A program made the position numbers and the translations under genes. Shown here piece by piece: positions 1,198 to 62,914 of a stretch of 64,000 nt of DNA. Position 1 is the first letter of the stretch. The number at the start of each line of letters is the position of its first letter. This DNA comes from Enterococcus innesii (GTDB taxonomy: Bacteria; Bacillota; Bacilli; Lactobacillales; Enterococcaceae), in the NCBI GenBank assembly GCA_018982785.1, contig JAHHEN010000007.1:62001-126000 (forward strand). Direction: 5' to 3'. Under the pieces are notes generated by a model. That model searched no databases. It was not told where the DNA came from and saw only the letters and a list, made by a program, of their open reading frames with translations.

Positions 1198-1971
1198 CTG
1201 TTTGCTCCTTTTCAAAATAATAATGAAACCCTAATCCTCCTGTGATCGGATGATGGTAAATACTGCATTTCACGCCATAGATCTCTTCGATCAGTTCTTC
1301 TGTCAGCAGCGTTTCTGGTTCGCCATACCCTACGACCCGACCATCTTTTAAGGCATAGATGATGTCGCAATAGTTGGCTGCTTGTTCCAAATTATGCAGC
1401 GCCGCCAACAAGCCAATCTTCAGATGCTTGACGGTCTCTAAGATTTCCAGCTGGTAACGGATATCCAAATGATTGGTCGGCTCATCGAGAATCATAAATT
1501 TCGGTTCTTGGGTGATGGCACGAGCAAGGACGACCCGCTGTTTTTCGCCTCCTGATAATGAGAGGTAGCTGCGTTTTCTGTAGGCACTTAACCCTGTTTT
1601 GGCTAAGGCTTCGGTGACCAGCTCATGATCGGCTTTGGTGTCTTGTTCCAACAACCCCTTGTGGGGCGTGCGGCCTAAAAGCACCATCTGTTCTACTGTT
1701 AAATCAAAGCTCAACTCATTGAACTGACTGACGACGCTGACTTGCTGGGCGACTTTTTTTCGGAACTTTTCAAAATATTCATCTCACCCAAATAAATTTC
1801 GCCGCTGTCAGGTTTCAACGTTTTGTAGATGGCTTTTAACAACGTGGACTTCCCACTGCCATTAGACCCAATCAAACCGACAAATTGCCCTTGTGCGGTT
1901 TGGACGGAGATGTCTTTTAGAATCTGCTGATCCCCGATCGTCAGATTGAGCTTTTCAACTGCCAATTTCAT
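1190..1971 (-). pseudogene. Iron-complex ABC transporter ATP-binding protein (FecE-like), frameshifted
   Basis: Cytoplasmic ATPase of the iron-complex importer. Start ATG at 1971, with GGGGGTGA 4 bases upstream. The first part shows Walker A GSNGSGKST. The second, in another frame, shows the signature LSGGE, Walker B MILDEPT and the H-loop ALHNLE. The frames part near 1763-1772: adding one base there gives NILKSFRKKVAQQ followed by VSVVSQFNELSFDL, exactly the expected family sequence, and makes 782 nt into 783 (260 aa, the usual length). All catalytic motifs are intact, so I regard this as a functional gene with a single missing base rather than a decayed one. The C-terminal part overlaps the start of the binding-protein gene. 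Confidence 0.8.
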
Positions 1972-1975
1972 CTCG

Positions 1976-3048
1976 TCACCCCCAAAGTTGTATTGTCGTT
2001 TGACAATGATATAGATAAAGATCGGTGCACCAATCAGCGCTGTAATGATCCCGATCGGCAGTTCGACTCCTTGCAGAGTCGAGCGGGCGATCACATCCGC
2101 CCAAATCAAAAACAACGCGCCTGTCAAAGCGGTCAAAGGCATCAACAGGCGATGATCCGACCCGCTGACTCCACGTACGATATGAGGAATGATCAAGCCG
2201 ACAAAGCCGATCATCCCAGAATTCGCAACGATGATACTGGTTAATAGCGCTGCTAGCAGCATGTAAAAACGCCGATAGAAGGTCAGCTTGACCCCTAAGG
2301 TGGAGGCAACTTCATCCCCCAGCAAAAGCGTATTCAAAACACGGTATTGCGTCAGGAAGAAGAGCGTGATCAAAGAAACCAGAACCACGATAAAGCCCAA
2401 TTTGTTCCAAGAAGCCGAGGCTAGGCTGCCCATCGACCAAAACGCTACGGTCTTCATCCCTTCTGCATTGCTAGCCAGATAGATGATCAAGTTTGAAACA
2501 GAGCTACATAAGGCACTGACGATCGTCCCCGACAGCACAAGTTTTGTGGAAGTCATTTTCCCACCGATACTGGCAAGCAGCAGCACCAAAATGGTGGCAA
2601 TCCCCGCTCCTGCAAAGGCACCAAACGATAAGCCCAGCTGCAAGACTAGCGCCGAGCCGCCAAACCCGACTAAGATGGCGAAGGTCGCCCCTAAGGATGC
2701 GCCAGAAGAGATTCCTAAGATATAGGGATCTGCCAGCGGATTTTGGACCACCGCCTGCATCACTGCCCCGCTGATCGCTAACCCCATCCCCACAAAAATA
2801 GAAAGCAAGACCCGGGGTGCCCGAACAAACCAGACGATATTGATGTTTGCGTCTGAAATGCCTGAAAGATCACCAACCAACCCATGGCTGATTTTATAGA
2901 AGAGAATTTGGTAAACTTCGCCAAGGGTGATATTGGCTTGACCGTTTGCCAAAGCAACTCCTGCAGATAAGAGAATGGCGACAACTAAAACACAGCAAAT
3001 GATTGTCGAAACCATCCAACGATTTGATTTAATCAACCCTACCGACAT
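1976..3048 (-). CDS. Iron-complex ABC transporter permease (FecCD family)
   Basis: Polytopic permease of the FecCD/BtuC family, about 357 aa. Characteristic sequence includes RAPRVLLSIFVGMGLAISG and QNPLADPYILGISSGASLGA near residues 75-120, and GMIGFVGLIIPHIVR near residue 280. As given, the frame stays open through the C-terminal FGG and continues into the ATPase gene, producing an apparent permease-ATPase fusion. The junction is a G5 run (1979-1983): with six G the permease ends exactly at YNFGG-TGA, the usual FecCD end, and the same G-rich stretch acts as Shine-Dalgarno for the ATPase. The fusion is therefore probably an artefact. Start ATG at 3048 is preceded by AAAGGAG. First gene of the operon. 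Confidence 0.85.
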
Positions 3049-3217
3049 GTGATTCTCCTTTATTCAGCACGATCCTCTCCTGATTTCACAGCAAAAACAA
3101 CATTGACTGTTGCCTCGCCGCCATCATAAAAGAAGCATCTGTGCGTTTTTTCGCTTATAAAAGTTCGTCTCATGAAAAGCGCCCCAGCCATGTGCTGCTT
3201 TGACATCTATTTGCAAA

Positions 3218-3232
3218 TGAGAATCACTCTCA
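3218..3232. promoter_or_regulatory. Fur box
   Basis: TGAGAATCACTCTCA is a 7-1-7 inverted repeat with one mismatch between half-sites, matching the Gram-positive Fur consensus. It lies just downstream of the -10 element of the iron-uptake promoter, the right place to block initiation when iron is replete. Confidence 0.75.
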
Positions 3233-3244
3233 ATGAATAGAGTC

Positions 3245-3273
3245 ATTATAAGGAACCTTTTGTGAAATGTAAA
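3245..3273 (-). promoter_or_regulatory. Sigma-A promoter of the iron-uptake operon
   Basis: TTTACA (3268-3273) and TATAAT (3245-3250) on the minus strand with a 17-bp spacer. The Fur box begins 12 bases downstream of the -10. Confidence 0.8.
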
Positions 3274-3417
3274 TAATTTTCTGAAAATTTCCTTAAATAA
3301 GAGTTATTCTAATGTTCGTGATTAATTGGGCATTTTCCTCTCCATTGACCTATCGAAAACACGGTACCCGTGAAGAAGCGAATCCTTTGGCAAAATGATC
3401 CATTTTTTTTAATGATG

Positions 3418-3454
3418 AAAAAAAGACAGACTTCATTTCGTACGAAGTCTGTCT
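3418..3454 (-). terminator. Terminator of the riboflavin operon
   Basis: Perfect 11-bp stem AGACAGACTTC/GAAGTCTGTCT (3424-3434 with 3444-3454), followed on the minus strand by seven T. It lies 65 bases after ribH. Confidence 0.85.
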
Positions 3455-3519
3455 CCATTCTGATGCCTATGCTTAGGCAGGCTTTTTCTTGCTAACTTCC
3501 CTTTGTTCGAACGTGAAAC

Positions 3520-3993
3520 CTATGCGTTGCCAAGGATTTGCTGATTCAACGAAATCATCTCCAAAAGACCTTGAGCGGCTTCACTGCCTTTGTTGCCAGC
3601 TTTGGTTCCCGCCCGTTCAATGGCTTGTTCGATCGTTTCAGTCGTCAACACACCAAACATGATCGGAATATCGGCATTCAGACCAATTTGGGCTACGCCT
3701 TTCGCCACTTCATTTGAGATCAATTCATAGTGGGTCGTTGCTCCGCGAATCAAGGCACCTAATGTCACGATCCCATCGTATTGTTTGTGGTCAACGATTT
3801 TTTTGGTAATATACGGAATCTCATAAGCCCCTGGAACCCAATACACATCGATGTTTTCTGCTTTGACTCCATGACGCAACAAATTGTCTTTGGCGCCTTC
3901 CACTAACTTGGAAGTGATAAACTCGTTGAATCGTGAGACCACGATCCCTACTTTGACTGCCTCTCCCTGAAACGTTCCTTCAAATACTGTCAT
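3520..3993 (-). CDS. ribH: 6,7-dimethyl-8-ribityllumazine synthase
   Basis: Condenses 5-amino-6-ribitylaminouracil with 3,4-dihydroxybutanone 4-phosphate, the penultimate step of riboflavin synthesis. At 157 aa it has the standard length. Visible family motifs are [10 protein letters not shown] (substrate loop), [20 protein letters not shown] with the catalytic histidine, FGVLTTET and AGNKGSEAA. The start ATG has AAAGGAG 8 bases upstream. Last gene of ribD-ribE-ribBA-ribH, 21 bases after ribBA, and controlled by the FMN riboswitch at the head of the operon. Confidence 0.95.
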
Positions 3994-4014
3994 CGCTCAT
4001 TCTCCTTTGGTTGA

Positions 4015-5189
4015 TTAAATAGATAGGTAATGGTGAAACTTTTCTTTCTTCGTTTTCAAGTAGCTGCTGTTTTCTTTATGCGCAGGCATCTCCAGCGGAA
4101 CCCGTTCTGCTACCTTGATCCCTAAGCTTTCTAATTCCTTCACTTTGTCAGGGTTATTGGTCATCAGTTGAATCTCCTGCACTTCTAAGGAACGTAAAAC
4201 ATCGGCAGCAAACGTGTAATGACGAGCATCTGCTGCAAAACCCAATGCAATATTTGCTTCATACGTATCCAATCCTTGTTCCTGCAACTGGTAGGCACGG
4301 AGCTTGTTCCGCAAGCCAATACCGCGGCCTTCTTGGCGTAGATACAAAATCGCACCACGGCCTTTTGCTTCGATCTGCCGCATCGCTTCTTGCAGCTGTT
4401 CGCCACAATCACAGCGATGAGAGCCGAAGACATCGCCTGTTAAACACTCTGAATGGATCCGTAGTAACAGCGGCTCGGTAGTATGTTGAATCTCGCCTTT
4501 GGCTAGTAAAAGGTGTTCATTGCCGAATTCATCTTCAAATAAGGTCAATTGGAACGCCCCATAAGCCGTTGGCAGATCCACGGTGATAGGCGTGGTTCCT
4601 CGTAGATATTCCGCCAACTCATCAATGGTCAAAAACGGCAGCTGCCATTTTTCTGCTAATTTTTTCAATTCTGGGACCCGAGCCATCGTGCCATCTTCAT
4701 TTAAAATCTCACAAATGTAGGCTGCTTCCACGCTGCCAGCAAGCTTCGCTAAATCCACAGCCGCTTCTGTATGTCCTCTGCGTTCCAACACGCCGCCAGG
4801 TTGAGCGGTCAATGGGAAGATATGTCCAGGGCGATAAAAATCCGCAGCCTGTGACGCAGGATCAGCCAACTTTTCAATCGTCACTGCCCGGTCTTTCGCA
4901 GAAATTCCCGTACTCGTCGTCACGTGATCGACACTGATGGTAAACGCGGTGCCAAAGGCATCCGTATTATTGGCGGTCATCTCAGGCAATGCCAGCTTTT
5001 CAGCGATCGCTTGTGAGATGGGTGCACAGATCAAGCCGCGGCCATAAGTCGCCATAAAATTGACGGCTTCTGGCGTTGCGTATTCAGCGATCCCAATCAA
5101 ATCTCCTTCTGATTCCCGATTTTCATCATCGGCGACAATCACTAAGCCGCCTTTTTTAACCATTCCACTGCTTGTTCTACTTTATGCAT
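4015..5189 (-). CDS. ribBA: Bifunctional DHBP synthase / GTP cyclohydrolase II (start frameshifted)
   Basis: N-terminal RibB domain (DDENRESEGD metal/substrate loop, GHIFPLTA, RRGHTEAAVDLA) makes 3,4-dihydroxybutanone 4-phosphate. The C-terminal RibA domain (HSECLTGDVFGSHRCDCG zinc-binding cysteines, RQEGRGIGL, MTNNPDK) converts GTP to the pyrimidine precursor. The clean reading frame opens only at 5163, but the true start is the ATG at 5189: MHKVEQAVEW followed by LKKGGLVIVA is restored if the A6 run (5152-5157) has seven A. That makes 1175 nt into 1176 (391 aa). It follows ribE by 13 bases. Both active sites are complete. Confidence 0.9.
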
Positions 5190-5202
5190 CGTCTGCCTTC
5201 TT

Positions 5203-5790
5203 TCATTTTCGTTGGTATTTGACATATTTCCCGATCATATCCGTCTCGATATTGACCCACTCCCCTTGTTTCAACTGCCCCAGCGTCGTCTGGTCTTTGG
5301 AATGGGGAATCAAGCTAACGGAAAAGGCCTGTGCCGTCGTCTGGGTGACCGTCAAACTGACGCCATTGATCGCAATCGACCCTTGCGGAATGATTTCCCC
5401 TTGCACACTGACAGGATAAGCAAATGTCAAGATCAAGGCATTTTCCAACTGCTTTTTCTGGATCAAACGGGTCGTTACATCAATGTGGCCAGCGACAAAG
5501 TGGCCTTCAAAACGCTGCGTCGCTGCCATCGCTCGCTCCAAATTGACTTCGGCACCCACCGAGAGTTGTTTAAAGGTCGTTCGTTGAAAGGTTTCTGGCA
5601 TGATATCCACCGTAAACGTCGTCGCTTGTTTGGCGATCGCCGTCAAACACGTCCCGTTGATCGCCATACTGTCTCCGATCTGGTAATCCGCCAGCAAGCC
5701 TTCCGACGCACTGCAGGTTAGCTGGATCGTGCGGCTTTGCTTGCGGATCTCTTTGATGCGACCTTTTTCCTGAATCAATCCTGTGAACAT
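5203..5790 (-). CDS. ribE: Riboflavin synthase alpha subunit
   Basis: Dismutates two lumazine molecules to riboflavin. It is 195 aa with the duplicated lumazine-binding barrel: the N-terminal half begins MFTGLIQEKG and carries GDSMAINGTCLTA; the second half carries GHFVAGHID and GSIAINGVSLTV. The start is ATG 5790, with AAGGAGA 8 bases upstream; longer readings into the ribD tail lack family sequence. The start overlaps the end of ribD by 16 bases, suggesting translational coupling. Confidence 0.95.
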   Translation of the reverse strand: MFTGLIQEKGRIKEIRKQSRTIQLTCSASEGLLADYQIGDSMAINGTCLTAIAKQATTFTVDIMPETFQRTTFKQLSVGAEVNLERAMAATQRFEGHFVAGHIDVTTRLIQKKQLENALILTFAYPVSVQGEIIPQGSIAINGVSLTVTQTTAQAFSVSLIPHSKDQTTLGQLKQGEWVNIETDMIGKYVKYQRK

Positions 5791-6851: not shown

Positions 6852-6868
6852 CTTCCTTCCTCCTTTCA

Positions 6869-6903
6869 ATAAAAAAATGCCTCGTGAGAATCTCACGAGG
6901 CAT
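6869..6903 (-). terminator. Riboswitch-controlled terminator of the rib operon
   Basis: Perfect 13-bp stem ATGCCTCGTGAGA/TCTCACGAGGCAT with a one-base loop (6877-6903), then seven T on the minus strand. It sits between the FMN aptamer and the ribD ribosome binding site, so it is the expression platform: FMN binding should favour this terminator. Confidence 0.9.
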
Positions 6904-6968
6904 AGACAAACAAGACCGGCAAAAAATCAATTTTAGACGCACTGCGCCCCTTGAAATTTTGTGGTTTT

Positions 6969-7098
6969 TCTTCTCCCATCCAGACTTTCACTGTCGGTGC
7001 CAGATTCACACTGGCTCCACCGCATAGCTATGCGGGTCACGGACTTCAAGCATTGCGCTTGTCACCGTCGGTCGGGAATTACACCCTGCCCCGAAGAA
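6969..7098 (-). ncRNA. FMN riboswitch (RFN element)
   Basis: The minus strand reads the standard RFN consensus in order: TTCTTCGGGGCAGGGTG, AATTCCCGACCGACGGTGA, AGTCCGTGACCC, GGTGGAGCCAGTGTGAATC, GGCACCGACAGTGAAAG and TCTGGATGGGAGAAGAA. The closing stem TTCTTC/GAAGAA is present at both ends. It governs ribD-ribE-ribBA-ribH by transcription attenuation in response to flavin mononucleotide. Confidence 0.97.
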
Positions 7099-7117
7099 TA
7101 CTATTCAATTCATGTGC

Positions 7118-11254: not shown

Positions 11255-11256
11255 CC

Positions 11257-11525: not shown

Positions 11526-12527
11526 ATGAAAACCGTCAACACGATCGCTGCTTTTGTAAACAAGTATTTGATCTACATCATGATTTTATTGATGATCGTC
11601 TCTTATTTTTTCCCGCAACCCTTCTTATGGATTCCGCCTCGTACAACGATTCTTTTGAGCATCATCATGTTTTGTATGGGGATGACTTTAAACGTTGCTG
11701 CTTTTAAAATGGTCGTCTTACAGCCTAAAGCATTCATCTTAGGAGTGCTTTTCCAGTTCACCATCAGTCCTTTGGTGGCTTACGGCTTAGCGCAGCTGTT
11801 TGGTCTTTCTTCCGGTTTGATCATCGGGTTTGTCCTACTAGGTTGCGTTTCTGGTGGAACCGCCAGCAATGTCATGACCTTTATTGGCAAAGGCGATGTC
11901 GCCCTCACCGTTTCTATGACCACGGTATCGACCTTGTTAGCGACCGTCGTTACCCCCTTTTTAGTTTACGTCTTGGCTGGTCAGTATACTGAGATCTCTT
12001 TCTGGGAAATGCTCTTGTCTGTCTTGCAGATGGTGCTTTTGCCGATCATTTTAGGAGTGATCGTCCACAAACTCATTGCCAAGCACATCGAGCGATTTCT
12101 GCAATCATTTGTCTTGATTTCTTCCGTCAGTATCTTATTGATCGTTGCCGGAACTGTCGCTCGCAACGGTGCCGTGATCGTCCAATCTGGCTTGATCGTA
12201 ATTTTCTTAGTCTTGCTCCATAACTTGATCGGCTACGGCGCAGGCTATGGTCTGAGCCGTGTGATGGGCGTCAGTGCCACCCAAGCCAAATCCATCATGT
12301 TTCAATTAGGAATGAAAAATACCGGCCTAGCGATCTCGTTAGCCAATGCCCACTTTGCCACCATTGCTGCAGCCGTTACCCCTGCCGCAGTCGGCATGGT
12401 GATCCATCAAATTACCGGACCAATTTTAGCCAATCTCGTGGCCAAGAAAGAAGGAAAACAGTATGAGTCAAAGTATCTTTTTGCCAAACTACACAATCGG
12501 GGCGGACGCCTACGAAAAAGTAAATGA
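11526..12527 (+). CDS. Bile acid:sodium symporter (BASS/PanS-like) family transporter
   Basis: Membrane protein of about ten helices. Family motifs include CMGMTLNVAAFK, LGCVSGGTASNVMTFIGKGDVALTVSMT (the crossover sodium site) and GMKNTGLAISLANAHF. BASS proteins carry organic anions, including 2-keto acids and ketopantoate; the substrate here is unknown. The next gene, a probable 2-hydroxycarboxylate dehydrogenase, suggests a keto or hydroxy acid. The last 21 residues run 65 bases into that gene. One extra A in the A4 run at 12455-12458 would give a TGA overlapping the next ATG (ATGA), so the tail is probably an artefact. Confidence 0.8.
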   Translation: MKTVNTIAAFVNKYLIYIMILLMIVSYFFPQPFLWIPPRTTILLSIIMFCMGMTLNVAAFKMVVLQPKAFILGVLFQFTISPLVAYGLAQLFGLSSGLIIGFVLLGCVSGGTASNVMTFIGKGDVALTVSMTTVSTLLATVVTPFLVYVLAGQYTEISFWEMLLSVLQMVLLPIILGVIVHKLIAKHIERFLQSFVLISSVSILLIVAGTVARNGAVIVQSGLIVIFLVLLHNLIGYGAGYGLSRVMGVSATQAKSIMFQLGMKNTGLAISLANAHFATIAAAVTPAAVGMVIHQITGPILANLVAKKEGKQYESKYLFAKLHNRGGRLRKSK

Positions 12528-20748: not shown

Positions 20749-21044
20749 CGTTTGATTTCTCCTCTCCATGCTGACATGCCGCCGAGGACATTGGTCACTT
20801 GAAACCCTTGCTGGCTCAAAAACTCAGACGCCATTTGCGAACGAGCCCCTGAATGACAGATGACATAGTAATTTTTATCCTTCTCTAAGTTGCTGATTTG
20901 TTCCGTAAGCTCGCTCAACGGTAGGTTTTGTGCTGTTTTGATGTGTCCTTGTGCAAACTCATCAACTTCTCTAACATCAAGGATCTCAAGTGGTTCACGT
21001 TTTTCTTTTTGGGTAAATTCCTCCATAGATATGGCTTTAATCAT
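20745..21044 (-). CDS. Single-domain rhodanese (sulfurtransferase)
   Basis: 99-aa rhodanese-fold protein with the active-site loop CHSGARS (Cys near residue 65), preceded by LDVREVDEFAQGHI. Handles persulfide sulfur in the cytosol. Its start overlaps the end of the CoA-persulfide reductase by 8 bases and its stop overlaps the cstR start, so translation is coupled along the operon. Confidence 0.9.
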   Translation of the reverse strand: MIKAISMEEFTQKEKREPLEILDVREVDEFAQGHIKTAQNLPLSELTEQISNLEKDKNYYVICHSGARSQMASEFLSQQGFQVTNVLGGMSAWRGEIKR

Positions 21045-22693
21045 GAATAATCATCTCCGGCTTAATAGTATTATACAACGAAAAGGCACCATCGAGGTTT
21101 TGACAATTGATGCCCGCTTGTTTTAAGATGCGTTCGGCAATGTAGCTTCTCAATCCGCTATGACACGTAACGACATACGAAACGCTTGGATCCAATTCAG
21201 ACAACCGATCTCTCAATTCATCCAACGGAATGTGGAGCGCCTCTTGAAAACGCCCATTATTGGTTAATTCCATTTCTGAACGAACATCCAACAACTGCTT
21301 ACCGTTTTCTAAGGCATCCGTCAATTCGTGCCATTGGATATTCGCACTGATTCCTTCTGCCAGATTGATCGCTGCATAGCCAATCATATTCACTGGATCT
21401 TTGGCTGAGCCAAAAGGCGGTGCATAGGTGAATTCCAGCTCAGGCAAGTCAAAGATCGTTAAGCCGCCTTTGATCGCCGTTGCTAATATATCGATCCGCT
21501 TATCGACTCCTTTGGCACCGATGCCTTGCGCACCATAAATTTTTCCAGTATCCGCATCAAAAATCAGTTTCAAATAAATATCCGTCGCATCAGGATAATA
21601 CCCAGCATGGTCTTTGCCTGAAAGATGAACCACCTGGGGATTTAGCCCCGTCAGTTTGGCGCTGCGCTCACTCACCCCAGTAGACGCTGCGGCAAGATCG
21701 AATACGCGCACGATCGCCGTCCCGACACTGCCTTTGTTTTTGCGAGTCAGTCCACCCAATACATCAGCAACTTGCCGACCTTGGCGATTGGCTGGTGACG
21801 CCAAGGAGATCAGCGTGTCTTCGTTAGTGATTTGTTGTTTCACAACGATGGCATCTCCCACCGCGTAAATGTCTTTCTTGCTAGTTTGGTATCGATCATC
21901 TACCAGGATACCCCCGGTGTCCTAATTGGATACCAGCACGTTTCGCCAAATCCGTTTCTGGTTGGACTCCCACTGAAAGAATCGTGACATCTGAGGCCAG
22001 GACCGTTCCATCTTCCAGAACGATTTCTTGCCCTGCTTTTTCAAAAGCGGTCGCTGACTGCGAGGTCAAAACTTTGACTCCTTGCTTGATCAATTCATTT
22101 TTGATATACGCAGCCATTTCTTCGTCCAAAGGTGGCAATACGTGGGGTGCTTTTTCTAAGATCGTAACTTCGAGGCCTTTTTTATGTAAATTTTCAGCGA
22201 CTTCTAACCCAATAAACCCAGCGCCAATGATCGTGGCTTTTTGAGGCTTTTTGTCTTCAAGATGCGCCATGATTTGGTCTAAGTCAGGAACATTGCGCAA
22301 AGAAAAGGCGTTGGTTGCTTCTTCTAGCCCTTTGATCGCCGATACTAGCGGTTTTGCCCCCGGTGATAAAATCAACGCATCATAAGATTCCGTGAAAATT
22401 TGCTCGCCGTTTTTGACTGTCACCGTTTTCTCCTGCGGATCGATCGCCAGCACTTCATGAAGAGGCCGCACATCTAGGTTAAACCGTTTTTTTAATGCCT
22501 CAGGTGTTTGGACCAATAAGGCGTCTCGCTCTTCGATCTCCCCAGAAATGGCATACGGCAGCCCGCAATTTGCAAAAGAGACAAAAGGACCTTTTTCAAA
22601 AACAATGATCTCCGCTGCTTCTTTAAGCCGCCGTAAGCGCGTGGCTGCCGACATTCCCCCTGCTACCCCACCGACAATAACTATTTTTTCCAT
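21037..22693 (-). pseudogene. CoA-disulfide/persulfide reductase with C-terminal rhodanese domain (frameshifted)
   Basis: FAD-dependent reductase. N-terminal VGGVAGGMSAATRLRRL FAD motif, active-site Cys in FVSFANCGLPYAI (about residue 42), NAD motif IIGAGFIGLEVAE. The second part continues with the FAD motif DAIVV, a dimerisation domain, and a rhodanese domain with CHSGLRS. This is the domain order of the enterococcal CoA-persulfide reductase. The frame breaks at a G5 run (21911-21915 on the plus strand): removing one G gives GHRGILVDD, adding two gives GHRGGILVDD. All catalytic residues survive, so the gene is probably intact in the organism. Start ATG 22693 has AAAGGAGG. Confidence 0.85.
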
Positions 22694-22695
22694 CG

Positions 22696-23010
22696 TTACT
22701 TTCCTCCTTTGGTTGTTCCCCGCCATTGATTCATGCCACCGCGAACATTGACCACATCAAAACCCTTTTTATTTAGGATTTTGGCTGCTTGTTTGCTTCG
22801 CATCCCTGATTGGCAAATGACTGCCAGTTTCTTGTCACCTTTTTGAGTGAAGCCCGCAATCTTGTTTAACGGTACATTTTTGGCGTAGGCAATGTGCCCG
22901 CTACGGTACTCCGCCGGCGTGCGAACATCCAGAACCGTCCATTCTTTGGCTCCTTCTTTTTGTAAATCTGCTGTTGACATACTTGGTATGCGTTTAAATA
23001 ATGAAAACAT
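22696..23010 (-). CDS. Rhodanese-like sulfurtransferase
   Basis: 104-aa rhodanese with LDVRTPAEYRSGHI and active-site loop CQSGMRS (Cys near residue 68). First gene of the persulfide-detoxification operon, directly behind the CstR operator. A slightly hydrophobic N-terminus MFSLFKRIPSM is not a convincing signal peptide. AGAGGAGC precedes the start. Confidence 0.9.
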   Translation of the reverse strand: MFSLFKRIPSMSTADLQKEGAKEWTVLDVRTPAEYRSGHIAYAKNVPLNKIAGFTQKGDKKLAVICQSGMRSKQAAKILNKKGFDVVNVRGGMNQWRGTTKGGK

Positions 23011-27356: not shown

Positions 27357-27689
27357 ATTAAACTGATGCGCCGTTTTTCATCTTTCTATAGTGAAAAAAC
27401 AAACGGCTCACCTCATCAAGTAGTCAGTTGTTGTGCGTACAAAAAAGGTCATACTACTTGCTGTGTTTTTTAATTAAGGTCTTGTCGCCTGATTCCGCAC
27501 TTATTTCTAGTCACTCTAAGCAACAATCCCCTAACGATTTATAGATAGAACCCTTTATTAGCGGCGTTCCCCACTTTTCCTAGACTGGCTAGTAACATTT
27601 CTCCTTGCAAAACTGTTCGTCTGATGAAAGGTCATCTATAGAACCATTCTGTTATAATAGCTCCATATTTGAGGATAAGGATGGTTTAT
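27357..27689. other. Intergenic region
   Basis: About 330 bases. A TATAAT near 27653, with no clear -35, probably belongs to the promoter of the YxeA-like gene. Confidence 0.35.
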
Positions 27690-28078
27690 ATGAAAAAAAT
27701 AATCGGATTCATCTTAGTCGTACTTTTAGGGTTTGCCGGATACAAAGGCTATGAATATTATCAATCCACCTACTCAGGACAAACAGCTTACGCGTATGTC
27801 CCATCTGAGATTCCCCTAAGGTAGAACATGAAAGTAAAAGCGGCATCGGCGACCAGTCGCCTTGGTATTCTTACGATTACACGTTAAACTTTGTAAAAGA
27901 AGATGGTAGCACAGAAACACTCGAGGTTTCATTATCAGAAGATAACGCAAAACCACTAACACCAAATTCATATGTAAAAGCGGTGATCAGTGAAAAGCGG
28001 ACAATAAAAGGCCCGAATGGCGTTGAAAAAGACGCAATTCCCAAAAAGATTCTAGAAAAATTAGAAAATCAGAACTAA
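27690..28078 (+). pseudogene. YxeA family secreted protein (frameshifted)
   Basis: DUF1093/YxeA-type small exported protein: N-terminal hydrophobic anchor MKKIIGFILVVLLGFAGYKG, then a beta-rich domain (YDYTLNFVKEDGSTETLEV, YVKAVISEKRTIKGPNGVE) ending in IPKKILEKLENQN. The frame breaks at ATTCCCCTAAGG (27810-27821). One added base (C4 to C5 or A2 to A3) restores a 129-aa protein and turns 389 nt into 390. Function of the family is unknown. Confidence 0.7.
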
Positions 28079-31698: not shown

Positions 31699-33092
31699 TT
31701 AATGTGAAAAGCCATAGGTTTGATCGGATGAAACATGACGGCTTGGTCGCTTGTTCAAGCGCTCGATTCCTTCTTTCATGTCTTGCACCAGATCCATTGC
31801 CATTTGCATACTTAAATCTGCCCGACAGACAAAGCGTTGGATATTGATATGTGATAGATTATCAGGTAATGGATAGGTAGGGACTTGCCAGCCTTTCATC
31901 GCAAATTCATCCGTCAAATCATACAGATTCCAAGAAATATCGGCATCTTCTTTTAATTTGTAGCAGACGATCGGCAACCGTGAACCATCATTATAAATAT
32001 CGAAGTAACCCATGTTTTCAATCTCTTTTGCTAAATATTGGGCAACATCACTGGTCTTTTTGTGGATCAAGCGGTAGCCTTCAAACCCATTACGGATAAA
32101 GGTGTAATATTGTCCGATGATTTGGCTGGCACTTCTTGAAAAGTTGATGGCCATCGTTGGCATTTCACCGCCAAGATAACTTACTTTAAAGACCAGCTCT
32201 TCTGGTAAGAAATCTTTTTCTTTCCAAAGCACCCAACCGATACCAGGATAGACTAACCCATATTTATGTCCAGACGTACTGATGGAACGAACGTTTTTCA
32301 AACGGAAATCCCATTCAAGTTCTGGTTCCATAAATGGTGTGTACAATCCCCCACTAGCCGCATCCACGTGGATGTAGACTTTGTAGTCGGTGTGTTTGTT
32401 GTATTCCTCTAATTTCTTATCTAGTGCTTTGATGTCATCGTATCGTCCAGTGTAAGTGATTCCTAAGATGCCGACGACCCCGATCGTATATTCATCTAAA
32501 TAGTCTGTGACCTTTTCGACATTGATGCTGCCATGTTCTTCATCGATAGGGATCGTCCGCATTTCAATGTCCCAGTAGACACAGAATTTTTCCCAAACGA
32601 CTTGATAGGCAGAAGAAATCACTAAGTTTGGTTTTTGTTTATTGATATCTAAGCCAAGTTTTTTTGCCCGATTGCGCCAAGCAAATTTTAAGGCCAATCC
32701 ACCTAGCATACACGCTTCACTTGAGCCTACCGTTGATGTACCGATAAAATCGGACGCTTCTGGGGCATGCCATAAATCAGCGATCATATTGACACAGCGG
32801 TTTTCAATTTCTGCTGTCCGTGGGTACTCGGTTTTATCGATGGCGTTTTTATCAAGGGTTTCACTCATGATTTTGACTGCTTCTGGTTCCATGTAGGTTT
32901 GACAGAACGTCGCCAAATTTTGTCTTGAGACCCCTTCATCGATCAATTGATCCTTGACTAATTCATAGGCATCCCGCGGTACCAAGGACTCTTTTGGTAA
33001 TTTGTACATAGGGATCGCTTGATCCATTGCCTCATTCCCATAGATAGGCTCCAAATATTGGGCTTCTTTTCGATTTTTTTACTAAATAACAT
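31699..33092 (-). CDS. gadB: Glutamate decarboxylase (start frameshifted)
   Basis: PLP enzyme converting glutamate to GABA with proton consumption, about 464 aa. PLP pocket HVDAASGG and the Schiff-base lysine in STSGHKYGLVYPGIGWVLW are present; NLATFCQTYMEPEA and GTSTVGSSEACMLGGLA are typical of bacterial GAD. The intact frame starts at an internal TTG (33054), but ATG 33092 with GAGGAGGAG before it is the real start. One A added to the A7 run (33074-33080) gives MLFSKKNRKEAQYLEPIYGN, which matches GadB N-termini, and brings 1394 nt to 1395. Cotranscribed with gadC upstream. Confidence 0.93.
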
Positions 33093-41582: not shown

Positions 41583-41830
41583 TCAGTTCTTCCTATCTCT
41601 AAAATAACAATAAACCAAATAACCACTCGAGCATACTAACAAAGGAAGTCCGACATAGAGCATACCAATTCCTAACGGATAATTAATAGCAAGGTCAAGT
41701 TGGATATTCTTAAGTTCTTCTTGACTGATTGTGTCAAAATCTTGAATAGGGATCAAAATCGTTTGTAAAAAAAGCCAACGACCGTGATAAAAAGACTGAA
41801 ACAAAAAACGCCGAGTGCAAATTTTTTCAT
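41583..41830 (-). pseudogene. Small membrane protein (82 aa when repaired), frameshifted
   Basis: ATG 41830 has AAGAGG upstream and begins MKKFALGVFCFSLFITVVGF. The frame breaks in a homopolymer (A7 on the plus strand, 41767-41773). One added base joins it to LQTILIPIQDFDTISQEEL and a second helix LGIGMLYVGLPLLVCSSGYL with a basic tail, and turns 248 nt into 249. Two-helix membrane protein of unknown function, probably cotranscribed with the CAAX protease. Confidence 0.65.
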
Positions 41831-42397
41831 AAGAGACCTCTTTTCAGCATACACTTTATTGCTTTATCATCTTATTATACACACCATTCATTAAAAAAAG
41901 AATCTTAAAATATTTTTACACATTACACTTGCAACAATTAACAAAGAAACCATTCTACAGAAGTCATTCCTTAGCTGGGTAAAGTAGTCTTCTCACTAAT
42001 AATCCTTCCATCAAACAACATAGGAAGTGCTTAATTTCCTTCATTCGACTTACTTGAAATCTGCCTCTATGAAGACTAGAAACGCGTATCCAAATCACCG
42101 CTATCCACCGTATTTAGAGTATCGATGTGCTTTTTGAGACAGTGCCGAAATGGCAGACCTTTTCTCCGAAAAAATCAGAGGGGATGCTAACAAAAATACC
42201 GCTAGCAGCAAACGAATCATCGTCCTTACCAACGGCATTTTATTAAAGACTTCTGTCCTGGATTCTCTAAAAATTCCACTTCATATTTTTAGTCAGGCAC
42301 TGTTTTTATTGTAAAAAGAACTTTCTTTTCTTTAGCATAGCAAAGGTGGATTGCCATTCTTTTCTAGGACAGGTTTTGTGGTCCGTAGTAAAAAGAT
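41831..42397. other. Long region without recognised gene
   Basis: 567 bases. Several short open frames without ribosome binding sites on either strand; no strong hairpin or known motif seen. Could be decayed sequence. Confidence 0.4.
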
Positions 42398-48530: not shown

Positions 48531-48613
48531 TTACTTAGTAAGATAGAAAAAGACAACAACCATTATGACAACAAGTACCCAAAAATACCATTTTTCAGAG
48601 TTTTTTTCTTCAT
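48531..48613 (-). CDS. Single-pass membrane micropeptide (27 aa when repaired)
   Basis: ATG 48613 has AAAAGGGAG 6 bases upstream. As given the frame ends after 16 codons. One added A in the A7 run (48601-48607) gives MKKKNSEK, then WYFWVLVVIMVVVFFYL and a TK end, with 84 nt exactly. The product is a basic N-terminus plus one membrane helix. It is too short for standard gene calling. It lies downstream of the 64-aa gene on the same strand. Confidence 0.5.
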
Positions 48614-49832: not shown

Positions 49833-52392
49833 TTAAAACAAACCAAAGTATTTTTTTACTTCAATATACACTAAAGGAAAAATGGATAAGCCGATTACCC
49901 ATAGCCAGTCAACTGCACGAAGAGAGACAAAGCCAAAAATGGTTTGCGTGAATGGAATCGTTACTAACAAGATAATGATCAATGCACCTATGAAGGTTGT
50001 CATTACTAACAACGGATTGCTCAAAAAACGCAGCTTCAGAATAGATTCTTTACTTCTACAATTAAACATATGCACAATAGTTGATAATCCCAATACAATA
50101 AATGTCATTGTCTGCGAAACCTCTATCGATTCTAGACGTCCAATTAGAATCGCGCCTAATGTGACGCCTGTAAAAACAATTGAAATTTCTACAATTTTTA
50201 CCAATAATCCTTGCGCAAAAATGCTCGTGTATTTAGCGATCGGGGCTTCCATCATTGCTTTTTTATCGACTGGTTCAATACTAAGACTCATTCCTGGGAT
50301 TCCATCTGCAACTACTTTTATGATTAACAATTGAACCGCTGTAACAGGTGCTCCCCACCCAACGAGCAAGGAAATTAAAACGATTGTCAGTGCAGAAATG
50401 TTGCAACCTAACATCGCATATAATGATTTTCTGATATTGCTGTATACCCGTCGTCCTTCTTCAACCGCCTGCACAATCGTCGCAAAATTATCGTCTACTA
50501 AAACCATATCAGAGGCTTCTTTTGCTACTTCTGTGCCACCTCCCATTGCGATCCCTACATCAGCTGCTTTTAATGCAGGTGCATCATTGACACCATCGCC
50601 AGTCATAGCGACAATCTCATCGTTTTTTTGGAATGCTTTTACGATTCGAATTTTATCTTCTGGGGAAGTACGAGCAAAGACTCGATAGTCATCAATCACA
50701 CGAGCTAATTTTTCATCGCTCATTTCATGTAAATCCGCGCCGGTCATTGCTTTTTTCCCATCGGTGAGAATTCCTACATCTTCTGCAATTTTTTTTGCTG
50801 TCAGTAAGTGATCCCCTGTGATCATTACGGTTTGAATCCCTGCTTGTTTTGCAATAGAAACAGCCGTATAGCTTTCGGGCCGAGCTGGGTCGATAATCCC
50901 AACAAATCCTGCAAACTCTAACTGACTTTCAAGAATTTCTTCAGTAAGACGTGTAGGTTTTTCATCGTATCTTTTATAAGCAACGCCCAAAACACGGTAT
51001 GCTTGATTGGTCAACTCATCATGCTTATTCAAGTAGGCAGGGTTGTTCGCATCAATGAGATCCAAGCGATCAAAGCCCCTTTTGTGACAGAAACATATTG
51101 GTCGTTTACTTTATATAAGACAGTCATCCTTTTTCGTTTTGAATCAAAGGGAACTTCATGAATCTGTTCAAAGGTTGAAGCGACTTTACTTTGTTCCTCT
51201 TTAGTGAAGAGCGATGCCAGTTTTTTCTGATCGCCAACTCTGTTGGATTACTAGTTACTGTTGCATTTTCTTCCATCGAACTAGCAAGATAGAAGAGAAA
51301 TAAGAGATTTTTTTCCTTCTCTTCTGTTATTTCTAAGCAGGAAGTCAGTCTATCCTTCATCACAATAACTTCTTTCACGATCATCTTATTTTCGGTAATC
51401 GTTCCAGTTTTATCTGAGCAGATGATTGAAACACCCCCAACGGTTTCTACTGTTGAAGGAGTCCTAACGATGGTTTTCTTCAGTGCCATATTTCTCATAC
51501 CAACTGCTAGAGAGATTGTTACTACGACTGGCAAAACCTCTGGAATAGCAGCAACAGCCATGGATATTGCGGTCATGATACTGGTCTCTAAAGACAATCC
51601 TTTGCTGATTCCTATAGCAATCGCTAGAAAGCCAGAGAGAATAGCGATTAGTCCTAGAACTTTCCCAAGTTTTTGCATTTTTATTTGTAGAGGTGCTATG
51701 GTTGTTTCTTCCTTGCTTAGTAAGCTCGATATTTTACCAATTTCCGTATTCATTCCTGTCTTTTCAACTCGAACGTTTGCTTTTCCTGTGACTACTAATG
51801 AGCCAGAAAAAACCAAGTCTTTTCTGTCCCCTAAAGAATCTTCTTTAGAAGAAATATAGGTGGGGTCTTTTTCACTTGGTTCACTTTCACCAGTTAGAAA
51901 CGATTCATCAACAAAGAAATTACTACTAGTTAAAAGCTTAGCATCTGCTGGAATACGGTCCCCTAATGCCAACTGAACAATATCACCAGGAACAATGTTC
52001 AAACTTTCAATCTCTTTTAACGCCCCATCTCTGAATACTTTACTTACGGGAACACTCATCTTATTTAATTCACTCATTGATTTTTCCGCATGTTTTTGCT
52101 GTCGAATCGACAAATATAGATTAAGAATGACAATTGAAAAGATGACTATTGGTTCCGTAAAATCATCAGGATGATTTTGAAAAGCAACATAACTAGATAA
52201 GAGCGTTGCAACGATTAAAATCAAGATGGTAATATCCTTCATCGACTCTTTCAAATAGTCATAAAAATGCTTCTCATCTTTGCTTTCTATGGAATTAAAC
52301 CCATATTTTTCTAGCCTCATTTCTGCTTCTTTACTGGAAAGTCCCAACTGGTTAGGGCTCTTTCCGTTTTCTTTCAATTGTTCTTTTACCAT
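49833..52392 (-). pseudogene. P-type cation-transporting ATPase (two frameshifts)
   Basis: Type II pump of about 853 aa when repaired. First part: LTGESEPSE actuator motif, PEVLP in the fourth helix, DKTGTIT phosphorylation site. Last part: MITGDHLLTAKKIAEDVG, TGDGVNDAPALKAAD and six helices. Between them the frame is lost twice: a T6 run on the plus strand (51221-51226) and AAA at 51072-51074. Adding one base to each restores RKKLASLF...HEVPFDSKRKRMTVLYK...TKGAFDRLDLID and makes 2560 nt into 2562. All catalytic motifs remain. Start ATG 52392 with TAGGAGG. PEVLP leaves the cation (Ca2+ or other) open. Confidence 0.82.
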
Positions 52393-56468: not shown

Positions 56469-56762
56469 TTGTCATTAAGAGGTATGTATACTCATTAATC
56501 GTGAGGTTATTATCCAGTAAAAAATTGACAACTTCTAATGCTTTTCGTGTATTACGGGGAATCAAACAAGTTTTGTAACAACGATTTCATCTTCAGGCTT
56601 CAGACCAACTATCAGCTGATTAAACGTTGGACGATCCCGTCTCATACCTATAAATTTTCCAGAAACAAATGCTCCTTCTCAACACCGTTCACAAGTTGTT
56701 TTTGAATTTACTCTTTCTTACATTGAGATGCGGCTAAGACACGTGCATAATCATATTTTGTA
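56463..56762 (-). pseudogene. Serine recombinase/resolvase remnant
   Basis: Minus-strand fragments KYDYARVLAASQ, NGVEKEHLF, FIGMRRDRPTFNQLIVGLKP, EDEIVVTKL, IPRNTRKALEVVNFLLDNN follow the N-terminal catalytic domain of Tn3-type resolvases (YGYARVSxxxQ...RPxFNxLL...GDxVVVTKLDRxxR). Several stops and shifts; the C-terminal HTH is missing. Mark of past mobile DNA. Confidence 0.7.
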
Positions 56763-56768
56763 TCTCTC

Positions 56769-57380
56769 CTACTCTGACAAATCATCTATCGTGTATTTGG
56801 AGAAACCTTCATAAAAAAAGCTAACGTCGATTCCTTTCATATATAACTCGCGGTCGTCAATTTTGTCAGTCAATGCCTTAGAAATCAGATAGCGTATCTC
56901 TAAATCATTTATGGGACTTCGCTCCATTGCTGATAGGTAGTTTTCTTTATTGATCAAGTTCCAATCTATAACCTTTTGCAATTCTTTTTTTAAAATGAGA
57001 GCCAGCCAAATTCTAGTAGTCCGACCATTTCCTTCACGAAAAGGGTGAGCGATATTCATCTCTACATATTTCTTGATAATCTCCTCAAAAGAAGTTTGCG
57101 GTAGCTGATCAATATGCTTTAACGAACGCTCCAAGTACATAATCGGCGCAAATTGAAAATTCCCTTTTGAGATATTGACCGTTCGAATTTTTCCAGCAAA
57201 ATCATAAATCTCTGAAAAAAGAAATTCATGAATTTCAGCTAAGCCTTTAATAGTACCAACTTCGATTTCATCTATTTTCCCCGAATCGTATAATTCCTTC
57301 GCTTTTTGCTTGCTTAGTTTTTCTTCAGCCTTGTCTGATGCAGCTTGATTGGTTAAACCCAAATTGTTATCTAAAATCAT
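56769..57380 (-). CDS. fic: Fic family protein, class III (AMP transferase)
   Basis: 203 aa. The Fic core HPFREGNGRTTRIW (about residues 112-125) has the catalytic His and phosphate-binding loop; the flap is NISKGNFQFAP. The C-terminal helix YMKGIDVSFFYEGF carries a Glu near residue 191, the position of the inhibitory glutamate of the class III E. faecalis Fic, which it closely resembles. Such proteins AMPylate themselves or targets and are switched by metal binding to the inhibitory Glu. Intact, although surrounded by debris. Confidence 0.9.
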   Translation of the reverse strand: MILDNNLGLTNQAASDKAEEKLSKQKAKELYDSGKIDEIEVGTIKGLAEIHEFLFSEIYDFAGKIRTVNISKGNFQFAPIMYLERSLKHIDQLPQTSFEEIIKKYVEMNIAHPFREGNGRTTRIWLALILKKELQKVIDWNLINKENYLSAMERSPINDLEIRYLISKALTDKIDDRELYMKGIDVSFFYEGFSKYTIDDLSE

Positions 57381-57726
57381 GCAAAATCCTCTTAACTTTA
57401 TGAAATAAGTTTATGGAACACTCTCAAGCCTATTATACCGAGTGCTTACCAACGTATCAAAAACTATTAAGTTTTTGACACTTTCTTGATTTTAATTCCC
57501 CATTTTCTCTCAATTCATTGTTGTCCCAAAAAGTCCTATATAGTATACCAAACATTTTTTTTACTGATATCCTCGTATACTACTAATTGTAAACAAGATT
57601 AAAGGTCAGGAGCTATAGAATGTGTTGGGTACTAATGGTAATTTTTTTGATAATATTGAGTTTTTTATGATCAACATATTTAGTTTTGCTAATTAATAAA
57701 TTTCAACTGTATAAGGAGAAGGAAAC
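57381..57726. other. Divergent promoter region of fic and the surface protein
   Basis: 345 AT-rich bases. TTGGGT (near 57627) and GATAAT with an 18-bp spacer may form the surface-protein promoter; the evidence is weak. Confidence 0.35.
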
Positions 57727-59013
57727 ATGAAAAAATTAACATTTAATGTATTATTAGTGCTTTCGTTGTTCTTGGTAAGTACACAAGTTATCTTCGCTCA
57801 AGAATCTGTTACTTTTACAGAATCAGTGGTATCAGACCAAAAGAGCGCATTAGCTGACGGAATTGTTATAAATGAAGATACTGGTCATTTTTATCTGACG
57901 AACGGGACACAAGTTTACCAAGACGGTGACAAATGGTATCTAATTGATGGAACCCTAGTAACTTCAGATTCTTCATTTGATACTATTCATTCGAATGAGA
58001 GCGATAATATACCCACTCTACCGAATCAAGAATTACCGAATTTATCTGAAGCATCGAATGAACCTGTTAAAGCACCTACTTTGACAGAACAAAAAGTACC
58101 TGCTCTACCTGAAGTACCGGTTGAACCTGTTAAAGCACCTACTTTGTCACAACAAAAAGTACCTGATCTACCTGAAGTACCGATTGAACCTGTTAAAGCA
58201 CCTACTTTGTCACAACAAAAAGTACCTGCTTTACCTGAAGTACCGGTTGAACCTGTTAAAGCACCTACTTTGTCACAACAAAAAGTACCTGCTTTACCTG
58301 AAGCTCCGGTTGAACCTGCTAGAGTACCTACTTTGACAGAACAAAAAGCACCTGATCTACCTGAAGCTCCGGTTGAACCTGTTAAAGCACCTACTTTGTC
58401 ACAACAAAAAGTACCTGCTTTACCTGAAGCTCCGGTTGAACCTGCTAGAGCACCTACTTTGTCACAACAAAAAGTACCTGCTTTACCTGAAGCTCCGGTT
58501 GAACCTGCTAGAGTACCTACTTTGACAGAACAAAAAGCACCTGCTTTACCTGAAGCTCCGGTTGAACCTATTAAAGCACCTACTTTGTCACAACAAAAAG
58601 TACCTGCTTTACCTGAAGCTCCGGTTGAACCTGCTAGAGTACCTACTTTGACAGAACAAAAAGCACCTGCTTTACCTGAAGCTCCGATTGAACCTGTTAA
58701 AGCACCTACTTTGTCACAACAAAAAGTACCTGCTTTACCTGGAGATCTCACTCGCCCTTCTAATAGTTCAAAATTGACTAAGATACAACTATCTAAGGCT
58801 TTTGAAAAGGATACTGAAGAACGCAGCTCTGCTATTCCCAATGACGAAAAAGCTTTCGCAGATACTTATACAAACAGAAAATTACTACCAAAAACTGGCT
58901 TTGGGGTAAAAGAAGTCCTCTTCAGTAGTCTTACTTCAATTTTAGGTATTTTGATTTCTTTCCTAGCTATCGGATTACTTGTAAATAAACGTGATAAAAG
59001 GAAAGGGAGATAA
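57727..59013 (+). CDS. LPXTG cell-wall-anchored protein with 21-residue Pro-rich repeats
   Basis: 428 aa. Signal peptide (about residues 1-25, cleaved after VIFA), a unique domain to about residue 100 (INEDTGHFYLTNGTQVYQDG), ten 21-residue repeats of the type APTLSQQKVPALPEVPVEPVK-like (residues 116-325) plus part of an eleventh, a short linker, sortase motif LPKTG, a membrane helix and a basic tail KRDKRKGR. The Pro-rich repeats probably form an extended stalk through the wall. AAGGAGAAGG precedes the start. Ligand unknown. Confidence 0.9.
   Translation: MKKLTFNVLLVLSLFLVSTQVIFAQESVTFTESVVSDQKSALADGIVINEDTGHFYLTNGTQVYQDGDKWYLIDGTLVTSDSSFDTIHSNESDNIPTLPNQELPNLSEASNEPVKAPTLTEQKVPALPEVPVEPVKAPTLSQQKVPDLPEVPIEPVKAPTLSQQKVPALPEVPVEPVKAPTLSQQKVPALPEAPVEPARVPTLTEQKAPDLPEAPVEPVKAPTLSQQKVPALPEAPVEPARAPTLSQQKVPALPEAPVEPARVPTLTEQKAPALPEAPVEPIKAPTLSQQKVPALPEAPVEPARVPTLTEQKAPALPEAPIEPVKAPTLSQQKVPALPGDLTRPSNSSKLTKIQLSKAFEKDTEERSSAIPNDEKAFADTYTNRKLLPKTGFGVKEVLFSSLTSILGILISFLAIGLLVNKRDKRKGR
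58072..58743 (+). repeat. 63-bp tandem repeats, ten full units and a partial
   Basis: The period is exactly 63 bp from 58072, with the partial eleventh from 58702. Two unit types (TLSQQKV and TLTEQKA) are interspersed, and late units are nearly identical at DNA level, a sign of recent expansion or homogenisation. Copy number is likely to vary between strains. Confidence 0.9.
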
Positions 59014-59016
59014 CTT

Positions 59017-59355: not shown

Positions 59356-59436
59356 AACATATTAAAAAGAACTCTTCCCCAATTAATAATATGAACGAAT
59401 AAATTTCAGCTACATTTGAAAAGGAGAAACAAATTT

Positions 59437-60075: not shown

Positions 60076-60192
60076 AAAAGTGCTACCTGTTTTTCAAGTA
60101 TACGGTTCTTGAGCGAGTATTCTTTAATAAAATTTAAGATTCATGATAAAATGAATAGAAAACTTAGTTGAAATATAGGAAAGGAGTCTAAT

Positions 60193-61047
60193 ATGAATTT
60201 CGGACCAAGAGTAAGGGAAATTAGAAAGAGTAAAGGGTTCTCTCAAAAAGAGGTTTATGCAAATATTATCTCCAAATCATACGCGATTTCATTTGAAAAA
60301 GGAGAAAATAATATCTCAGTCGTCCTTCTAATCGATATTTTGGACCGTCTTTCAATGGATATTGACGAATTCTTATTTATCAATAAAGGATATCTTCTGA
60401 ATGAATACTCCGATTATATTTACAACATGTCAAACTACTCTAATAAGCATGATCTTGCATCACTAAAAAAAATGTTACAGGCTCTTTCACAGGGAAGGGA
60501 CACAATTAGTCGTGTGCGTTTTGCAGAGATTCGCTGTCGAATCAAAGCAATTGAAAAATTTAATCGCACCGGTATCTTTGACGGAACAGAAACACTAGAA
60601 GAAGATCGAAACACGATTCAATCCTATTTAGTAGGAATCGAATCTTGGACATTGCGTGAGATTCAATTTTTTGGAAATACAATTGAATTTTTGGATTTTC
60701 AAGCCCATTTTCCTCTGTTTAAAAATCTATCAAAATCACTTACTTTGTACATGGAGTATGATAAAGGTCGAGAAATCTTTTGTTCCATGTTAGTGAATTT
60801 AATCAGCCAATCGATACGTATGAGATATTACGATTATGCCGAAGTACTCACCTATCAATTAAAAATTTTATGTGCTGATTATAAGAACTTTATTCACCAA
60901 ATCATTACTAGCTACTTCGAAAATCTACTACTAATCAAGAAAAATGGTCATTCGGATAGTGCTATCAAAGAATGCCAGAATGTCCTTTCTATTTTATCGA
61001 CTTATGGTCATCTTTCAATTGCCAACGAATTAAAATCATTGCGTTGA
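60193..61047 (+). CDS. Rgg/GadR/MutR family transcriptional regulator
   Basis: 284 aa: N-terminal HTH (RVREIRKSKGFSQKEVYAN, ISFEKGENNISVVLLIDIL) and a C-terminal repeat domain of helices (DTISRVRFAEIRCRIKAIEKF) that binds short peptides in this family. AAAGGAG precedes the start. Flanked by three CAAX-type proteases, whose relatives mature peptide pheromones. No obvious SHP-type peptide ORF was found in the 117 bases upstream or the 58 bases downstream. Confidence 0.85.
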   Translation: MNFGPRVREIRKSKGFSQKEVYANIISKSYAISFEKGENNISVVLLIDILDRLSMDIDEFLFINKGYLLNEYSDYIYNMSNYSNKHDLASLKKMLQALSQGRDTISRVRFAEIRCRIKAIEKFNRTGIFDGTETLEEDRNTIQSYLVGIESWTLREIQFFGNTIEFLDFQAHFPLFKNLSKSLTLYMEYDKGREIFCSMLVNLISQSIRMRYYDYAEVLTYQLKILCADYKNFIHQIITSYFENLLLIKKNGHSDSAIKECQNVLSILSTYGHLSIANELKSLR

Positions 61048-61105
61048 TTAATGCCTGATTACTTTAGATAAAATTGCTTTTAAAATCAAAAAAAGGAGTT
61101 TTAAA

Positions 61106-61975
61106 ATGAAACTAACACAATCAATGGTACAAACCAAAAAAGAACGAAAAGGGATTCTAGGATTAACTATATTTTTTGGACTTGTGATGGTATTTTTAGT
61201 TCAATATCTTGTAAGTATTCCATCAGAATTACTCTCAAATAGTGGCGCAAAAGATGTGTACATCTTATTTTCTAATATCGTAATAATTATTGCCTTGCTT
61301 GCCTTTTGTATCATTTTTGAAAAAAGAAGTCCTAAAACACTTGGTGTAAATCTCAGCAAACTCCCTAGGAACTTAGCTATCGGTTGGGGTCTAGGCTTTC
61401 TTTTAATGTTTTGTGTTTTTATTATCAATTTGATAACTGGATCAATCACTATTGACTTTGACTTGAAATCAATGAGCTGGCTCTATCTGATAACTACATT
61501 TTTCGGCTATTTTTTTCAAGGAACTATGGAAGAGTTTGTTTGTCGAGGATTTATCATGAACTCACTTTCAGCAAAGTATAATGTTTGGACAGGTATTATT
61601 GTAAATACTTTAATTTTTACTCTACTCCACAGCATCAGTCCAGATGTAACATTTATCGCTTTATTAAATATATTCTTGGCAGGAATGATCTTATCTTTCA
61701 TTTTTTATCTAAGCGACAATATTTTTCTAGTTGGTGCTTTCCATGCAGCTTGGAATTTCATGATGGGGCCTGTTTTTGGTGTATCCGTTAGTGGACTGAA
61801 AATTTACTCCTCTATGTTCAATACAAATTCTATACCTGAAAATAACTTGATTAATGGTGGTGCTTTTGGATTCGAAGGTGGACTAGGTTTAACAATCCCC
61901 GCAATAATTGCTATCTTTATTTGTGCTTACTTCATCCACAAAAAGAAAACTGATCACTTAGAAACAACATTATAA
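61106..61975 (+). CDS. CPBP family intramembrane metalloprotease
   Basis: 289 aa, eight helices. Full motif set: EEFVCRGFIMNSL (EExxxR), LLHSISPD and FHAAWNFMMGPVFG. AAAAGGAG precedes the start. Sits 58 bases after the Rgg gene and has a close tandem paralog downstream. Likely a peptide-processing or immunity membrane protease. Confidence 0.85.
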   Translation: MKLTQSMVQTKKERKGILGLTIFFGLVMVFLVQYLVSIPSELLSNSGAKDVYILFSNIVIIIALLAFCIIFEKRSPKTLGVNLSKLPRNLAIGWGLGFLLMFCVFIINLITGSITIDFDLKSMSWLYLITTFFGYFFQGTMEEFVCRGFIMNSLSAKYNVWTGIIVNTLIFTLLHSISPDVTFIALLNIFLAGMILSFIFYLSDNIFLVGAFHAAWNFMMGPVFGVSVSGLKIYSSMFNTNSIPENNLINGGAFGFEGGLGLTIPAIIAIFICAYFIHKKKTDHLETTL

Positions 61976-62055
61976 TTAATGGTTAAACTAAGACTTAAAA
62001 ATTCGCCTAATATTTTCTAGTCAAATAGGCCAAATACCTTTAAGGAGATATCATT

Positions 62056-62914
62056 ATGAAACCTAATAAATCAATCACATTAACAAAACAAGAATTTGAT
62101 AGGCCTCTTATTTTATCTATTTTCCTCCTGCTATTAGTTTTCTTTGGGGTTCAAAGTGTCTTTACAATACCGACTTTTTTTATTAGCAACCCAGGTGTTA
62201 AAGAAATATATGTACTTTTTACAAATATTTTTATAATCGGTGCTTTCCTATTATTTAGTAAAAAATATGAAAAAAGGTCTTTACAATCACTAGGAATTAC
62301 GTTTGCTAATCTCCCTTTGAATATGCTAATCGGCTGGTTACTAGGATTGTTGTTGATTTCAGCTGTCTTCGTCATTAATTTACTTACAAATTCAATATCA
62401 ACAAGCTTTAACGCCAACTCAATTAGTTGGATATATGTTGTGTCTGCTTTTTTCGGTTACTTAGTTCAGGGAACTATGGAAGAGATACTGTGTAGAGGCA
62501 TTATAATGAATTCTGTGGCTTCTAAATACAATGTTTTACTTGGGATAATCGTTAATACACTCGTGTTTTCTTTGCTTCACGGACTTAATCCTTCAATTAC
62601 ATTCCTGGCTCTAGCCAATATATTTTTTGCCGGACTTCTCTTTTCTTTGGTTTTCTATCTAAGCGATAATATCTTTTTGGTTGGCGCTTTTCATGCTGCT
62701 TGAATTTCTTGTTAGGGCCAGTAATTGGCATCAGAGTAAGTGGACTTGACTTCTACTCTTCTGTTTTTCGTACTGACCTTAATTCTGAAAATTCCTTGAT
62801 TAGCGGTGGAAAATTTGGTTTTGAAGGGGGTTAGGTTTGACTATTGCGGCAATTGTCTTTCTATCAATCATCTTTCTTGTGATTAAAACGAAAAAAGAAA
62901 AATATCTCTATTAA
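62056..62914 (+). pseudogene. CPBP family protease, tandem paralog (two frameshifts)
   Basis: Closely follows the upstream paralog throughout (EEILCRGIIMNSVASKYNV, LLHGLNPSITFLALANIFF, DNIFLVGAFHAA). It stops at TGA 62701 where the paralog has TGG; one added G restores NFLLGPVIGIRVSG. A second missing base lies at the G5 run 62826-62830 (FGFEGG-LGLTI). With both repaired, 859 nt becomes 861 (286 aa). Probably functional in the organism. Confidence 0.75.

Follow-up and report, generated by a model that had tools for sequence, protein, structure and literature searches.

Gene breaks in an Enterococcus-like genome window very probably reflect under-called homopolymers in a presumed long-read assembly

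Conserved genes that are split by small shifts of reading frame may be pseudogenes of the organism or faults of its assembly, and this is the question raised by the window analysed here, a stretch of 64,000 nucleotides (G000:C12:62001-126000). The first-pass annotation had listed 13 sites in the window as lost bases breaking genes. Eleven of these stood as reading-frame breaks relative to an intact relative or paralogue (Table 1), while one, at 12455-12458, fell away as a gene overlap of natural origin.

The window comes from a 3.69 Mb genome assembly (G000) in 14 contigs, with a completeness of 96.32 and a contamination of 4.37; the values for five genus-mates were 99-100 and 1-3, a contrast in keeping with an assembly that contains errors. 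The sequence looks like that of an Enterococcus. In a search of named genomes with ribBA, the top match among the best 80 listed was Enterococcus villorum (69%), and short plasmid matches to the right part of the window were nearly all from Enterococcus (82 of 83 records). The nearest genome compared, G001, was the main reference for frame breaks and run lengths. It aligned to the window in eight blocks at 87.8-96.5% identity, the longest extending over 18.8 kb at 96.5%, and 36,672 window bases were counted in this comparison.

Table 1. Genes with reading-frame breaks, and one gene overlap, in the window (positions are those of the window)
Feature	Position	Strand	Site of break	Observation
ABC-transporter ATPase gene (after FecCD permease)	1193..2033	-	1763-1772; 1979-1983	Two breaks; G001 281-aa ORF matches in three frames
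ribBA	4015..5225	-	5152-5157	Break near 5' end; G001 403-aa ORF matches in two frames
SBF-transporter / Fe-ADH gene overlap	12463..12527	+		Natural; 65 bases in G000, G001, G002 and G005
CoA-disulfide-reductase-like gene with rhodanese domain	21037..22726	-	21911-21915	G001 563-aa ORF matches in two frames; Pfam domains of both pieces
136-aa ORF of unknown function	27669..28075	+	27810-27821	Break outside homopolymer; G001 ORF matches in two frames
gadB	31699..33092	-	33074-33080	Break at about the fifth codon; G001 464-aa ORF; Pfam Pyridoxal_deC
90-aa ORF	41586..41855 (end approximate)	-	41767-41773	Indel at 41775; G001 residues 28-90 match in one frame
P-type ATPase gene	49836..52392	-	51072-51074; 51221-51226	Read in three frames; homologues of 862, 851 and 877 aa are intact
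CAAX-protease gene	62056..62908	+	62701-62702; 62826-62830	Three frames against intact neighbouring paralogue

Seven of the confirmed sites (all those in Table 1 up to the 90-aa ORF) were broken when compared with both the DNA and the open frames of G001. That the losses lie mostly in homopolymers, as had been proposed, was borne out by five of these seven, which fall in runs of six to eight that are shorter in the window than in G001. The deficit was one base, except at 21911-21915, where it was two; this site had already been singled out as the exception. At the remaining two, 27815 and 41775, the base absent relative to G001 is not part of a run itself.

Both broken runs of the ABC-transporter ATPase gene (Pfam ABC_tran and, for the permease, FecCD) are shorter than in G001, and the break at 1979-1983 joins the start of this gene onto the permease ORF (1711-3048). 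The runs in ribBA (Pfam DHBP_synthase and GTP_cyclohydro2) and gadB are each one base below G001. Both breaks lie near the 5' end of the gene and hold only if the start is placed as in G001, where gadB is an ORF of 1395 bases, precisely the intact length that had been predicted for it. A comparison with relatives had been proposed as a check, and ribBA, gadB and the CoA-disulfide-reductase-like gene are all open in G001. The break in the 90-aa ORF was seen in a 360-base alignment to G001 at 87.8% identity. For the P-type ATPase, the pieces are 40 to 72% identical to the three intact homologues, and the intact paralogue of the CAAX-protease gene (61106-61975) is 48 to 55% identical to it.

At 12455-12458, the 65-base overlap between the genes for the SBF transporter and the iron-containing alcohol dehydrogenase (Fe-ADH) is identical in G001, G002 and G005, even though G002 and G005 are only about 75% identical to the window at this locus. 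In G003 and G004 the two genes adjoin with no overlap. The overlap is therefore natural, with the SBF stop codon displaced, and marks a true difference between species; relatives need to be checked before a difference is named an error. When the region of the other listed site, 48601-48607, was compared with 58 other genomes, there were just three matches, of 27 to 33 bases each.

The window holds several further features. An FMN riboswitch (RF00050, 110.6 bits) lies at 6964-7102 on the minus strand, upstream of riboflavin genes, and explains short plasmid matches near that position. Plasmid searches with the window gave short matches only, and no phage matched a query of 1001 bases. A Fic-domain gene and its flank (56495-57484) are about 83% identical to Enterococcus plasmids, which are annotated there as 'protein adenylyltransferase Fic' and 'recombinase family protein'. 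Since nothing past 49,873 aligns to the compared part of G001, the right end of the window may hold mobile DNA. It also encodes a 428-aa ORF (57727-59013) that contains numerous proline-rich repeats, has LPKTG close to the end and is a putative sortase-anchored surface protein; an ORF on the opposite strand (58026-58841) mirrors its repeats. Among the relatives, a Ca-ATPase-type gene of G003 (L151, G003:C1:2970001-2990000) is broken outside any long run, leaving an open frame of 521 aa compared with 889 in G004, and is possibly a natural pseudogene.

The breaks are spread over the genome and are not confined to the window. Seventeen comparisons of G000 with G001 (the window and 16 further stretches) covered 300,559 aligned bases on seven of the 14 contigs; two pairs of stretches that gave no alignment (L153/L154 and L131/L132) were left out. 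In a strict count, restricted to G001 genes of ≥ 150 aa and ignoring breaks within the first 30 codons, 34 of 210 genes had a frame break in G000, and all seven sampled contigs had at least one such gene. Two further pairs of species in the genus served as controls; they are more diverged (14.8% and 10.7%) than G000 and G001 (5.2%). The same strict count found 4/99, 1/99, 1/48 and 1/48 genes broken in these pairs, each significantly fewer than in G000 (P = 0.0015, 1.3e-5, 0.0086 and 0.0086, respectively). The first control stretches alone (1/24) did not differ significantly from 34/210 (P = 0.14), and more control pairs were then added. The window by itself contributed only 2 of 25 genes to the strict count, because the breaks in ribBA and gadB are close to the start, and the remaining ORFs are short or without a G001 counterpart. 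In the reverse count, a frame change in G001 was seen for 21 of 220 ORFs of G000. These are mainly the same events viewed from truncated or fused G000 ORFs, and in at least one case (L161, 8264-9682) G001 is the shorter side. An initial gene count (window 8/28, elsewhere 27/93, reverse 21/125, controls 5/24 and 3/27) was dropped as it scored over-extended starts as breaks.

The control pairs also reveal a low natural rate of frame breaks, and even with errors behind most of the breaks, a real mutation could still underlie one or more of the eleven confirmed sites. Two of these sites lie outside homopolymers, and the P-type ATPase and CAAX-protease genes are in the part of the window with no alignment to G001. 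Such a mixture is rather unlikely within the window, however, as the general error rate of the assembly covers all eleven sites and calls for no second cause. Across the genome, some breaks, a minority, may be real mutations.

The direction of the indels is nearly one-sided, as had been claimed from the window. After 176 frame-changing indels within 60 bases of another had been set aside as clustered, 69 isolated ones remained in ORFs, with G000 short in 62 and long in seven (P = 4e-12). Forty-six were labelled as breaking G000, 17 as breaking G001 and six as unclear; in at least six of the 17, an out-of-frame fusion lengthens the ORF in G000. Outside ORFs the bias was weaker (53 short, 31 long, P = 0.02), which is expected because real indels also accumulate there. 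Runs of four or more hold 29 of the 46 indels labelled as breaking G000. The other 17, together with the seven of 69 that go the opposite way, count against an explanation by error. Sixteen single-base ORF losses lie outside runs of four, seven of them directly adjoining a run of four or more; when their contexts were searched for seven methylation-motif patterns, none occurred in more than two of the 16.

Loss also depended on run length. Coding runs of 4, 5, 6, 7 and 8 bases in G001 were shorter in G000 in 1/2050, 4/778, 13/230, 14/81 and 5/9 cases, and longer in 1, 3, 1, 0 and 0, respectively. With runs defined in G000 instead (coding, five or more), G001 was longer in 30 and shorter in three. 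In the control pairs, where 153, 149, 134 and 128 coding runs of five or more were tested, no coding run of four or more was shortened and one was longer. Non-coding runs of 6, 7 and 8 were shorter in G000 in 6/120, 7/74 and 7/15 cases and longer in 6, 1 and 0; the overall bias of non-coding runs was weaker (23 short, 9 long, P = 0.02). Among runs of six in the sampled stretches of G000, 7/10 G/C runs and 12/340 A/T runs were shortened, although these numbers are small.

A true mutator or phase-variable lineage, in which homopolymers contract in nature, would share part of this pattern, as slippage also gives a dependence on run length and the non-coding runs likewise rise with length. Slippage is expected to yield gains too, though, and mutS and mutL are full length in G000, with open frames of 859 and 707 aa as in G001, so that no mutator is indicated. 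The polC gene of such a cell would, moreover, be dead, and this explanation is very improbable. A mutS2-like gene, of a kind not known to act in mismatch repair, is split in two in G000 (G000:C7:584967-585622) and encodes 794 aa in G001.

PolC is the replicative polymerase of low-GC Gram-positive bacteria and is generally needed by the cell. Its gene is a single open frame in five genus-mates, and in G000 it carries five breaks that leave six successive ORFs of 226, 402, 138, 327, 324 and 69 aa. In addition, a single break divides dnaE into ORFs of 590 and 517 aa. Five breaks in polC and one in dnaE would scarcely be compatible with life. Intact rpoC, alaS and valS in G000, like intact mutS and mutL, fit scattered errors without demanding them.

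Real frameshifts might be tolerated if RNA polymerase or the ribosome slipped at runs and restored the frame, as occurs in some insect endosymbionts, so that even PolC would come from a gene with five breaks. While many of the breaks do lie in runs (29/46), the 17 outside them are poorly served by such rescue, five corrections would be needed in one polC message and the genes are uninterrupted in the close relative G001. Rescue of this kind is scarcely credible here.

There remains real genome decay, with true pseudogenes in a lineage that is shedding genes. The deposited sequence does contain the breaks, and natural ones exist in the control pairs (4/99 and 1/48). Decay, however, should bring stops as well, as the first-pass annotation had argued, and the codon comparison with G001 found no in-frame stop in the broken genes and eight in the intact ones; one TGA noted within a polC piece in a separate polC analysis was not borne out by this comparison. 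Nor is there a sign of relaxed selection, since the ratio of synonymous to nonsynonymous differences is alike in the 34 broken genes (1926:468) and the intact genes (6717:1635). Taken with the broken polC and dnaE and with losses that are one-sided and dependent on run length, this makes decay highly unlikely.

Judging from these sequence comparisons, the breaks are almost certainly errors of the assembly, best explained by under-called homopolymers, and the affected genes are very probably intact in the organism. The same interpretation had been put forward from the window alone; it is now supported by one-sided, run-length-dependent losses on seven contigs, by the unchanged selection signature and by the breaks in polC and dnaE. 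The consensus would under-count homopolymers and now and then drop a base elsewhere. A base or two lost at read calling and consensus building would shift the frame, and the genes would then look broken. The cause is presumably long-read base calling, most likely of the nanopore type, with too little polishing.

The result is biologically ordinary and is a caution against reading such breaks as real gene loss. With about one gene in six of the sampled part looking broken (34/210), pseudogene lists and gene counts drawn from G000 would be wrong, as would claims that the organism cannot synthesize riboflavin or has no glutamate decarboxylase. A polC gene split into six is a convenient warning sign of an assembly riddled with indels.

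Similar errors have been described for other long-read assemblies. According to the Homopolish study (PMC8011154), frame-shifting homopolymer indels make up most of the errors that persist in polished nanopore assemblies, much as here, and too many pseudogenes resulted from one of the polishing pipelines. That study had reads and truth genomes, whereas here relatives alone were compared and the platform was deduced from the errors. The Kastor report (PMC12007338) likewise describes the indel errors of long-read assemblies as mostly false deletions linked to homopolymers two to eight bases long, a small share affecting non-repeated bases, and notes that intergenic indels are hard to separate from strain variation. 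It gives a higher absolute number of errors in runs of A/T than in those of G/C, whereas in G000 the G/C runs of six were more affected per run.
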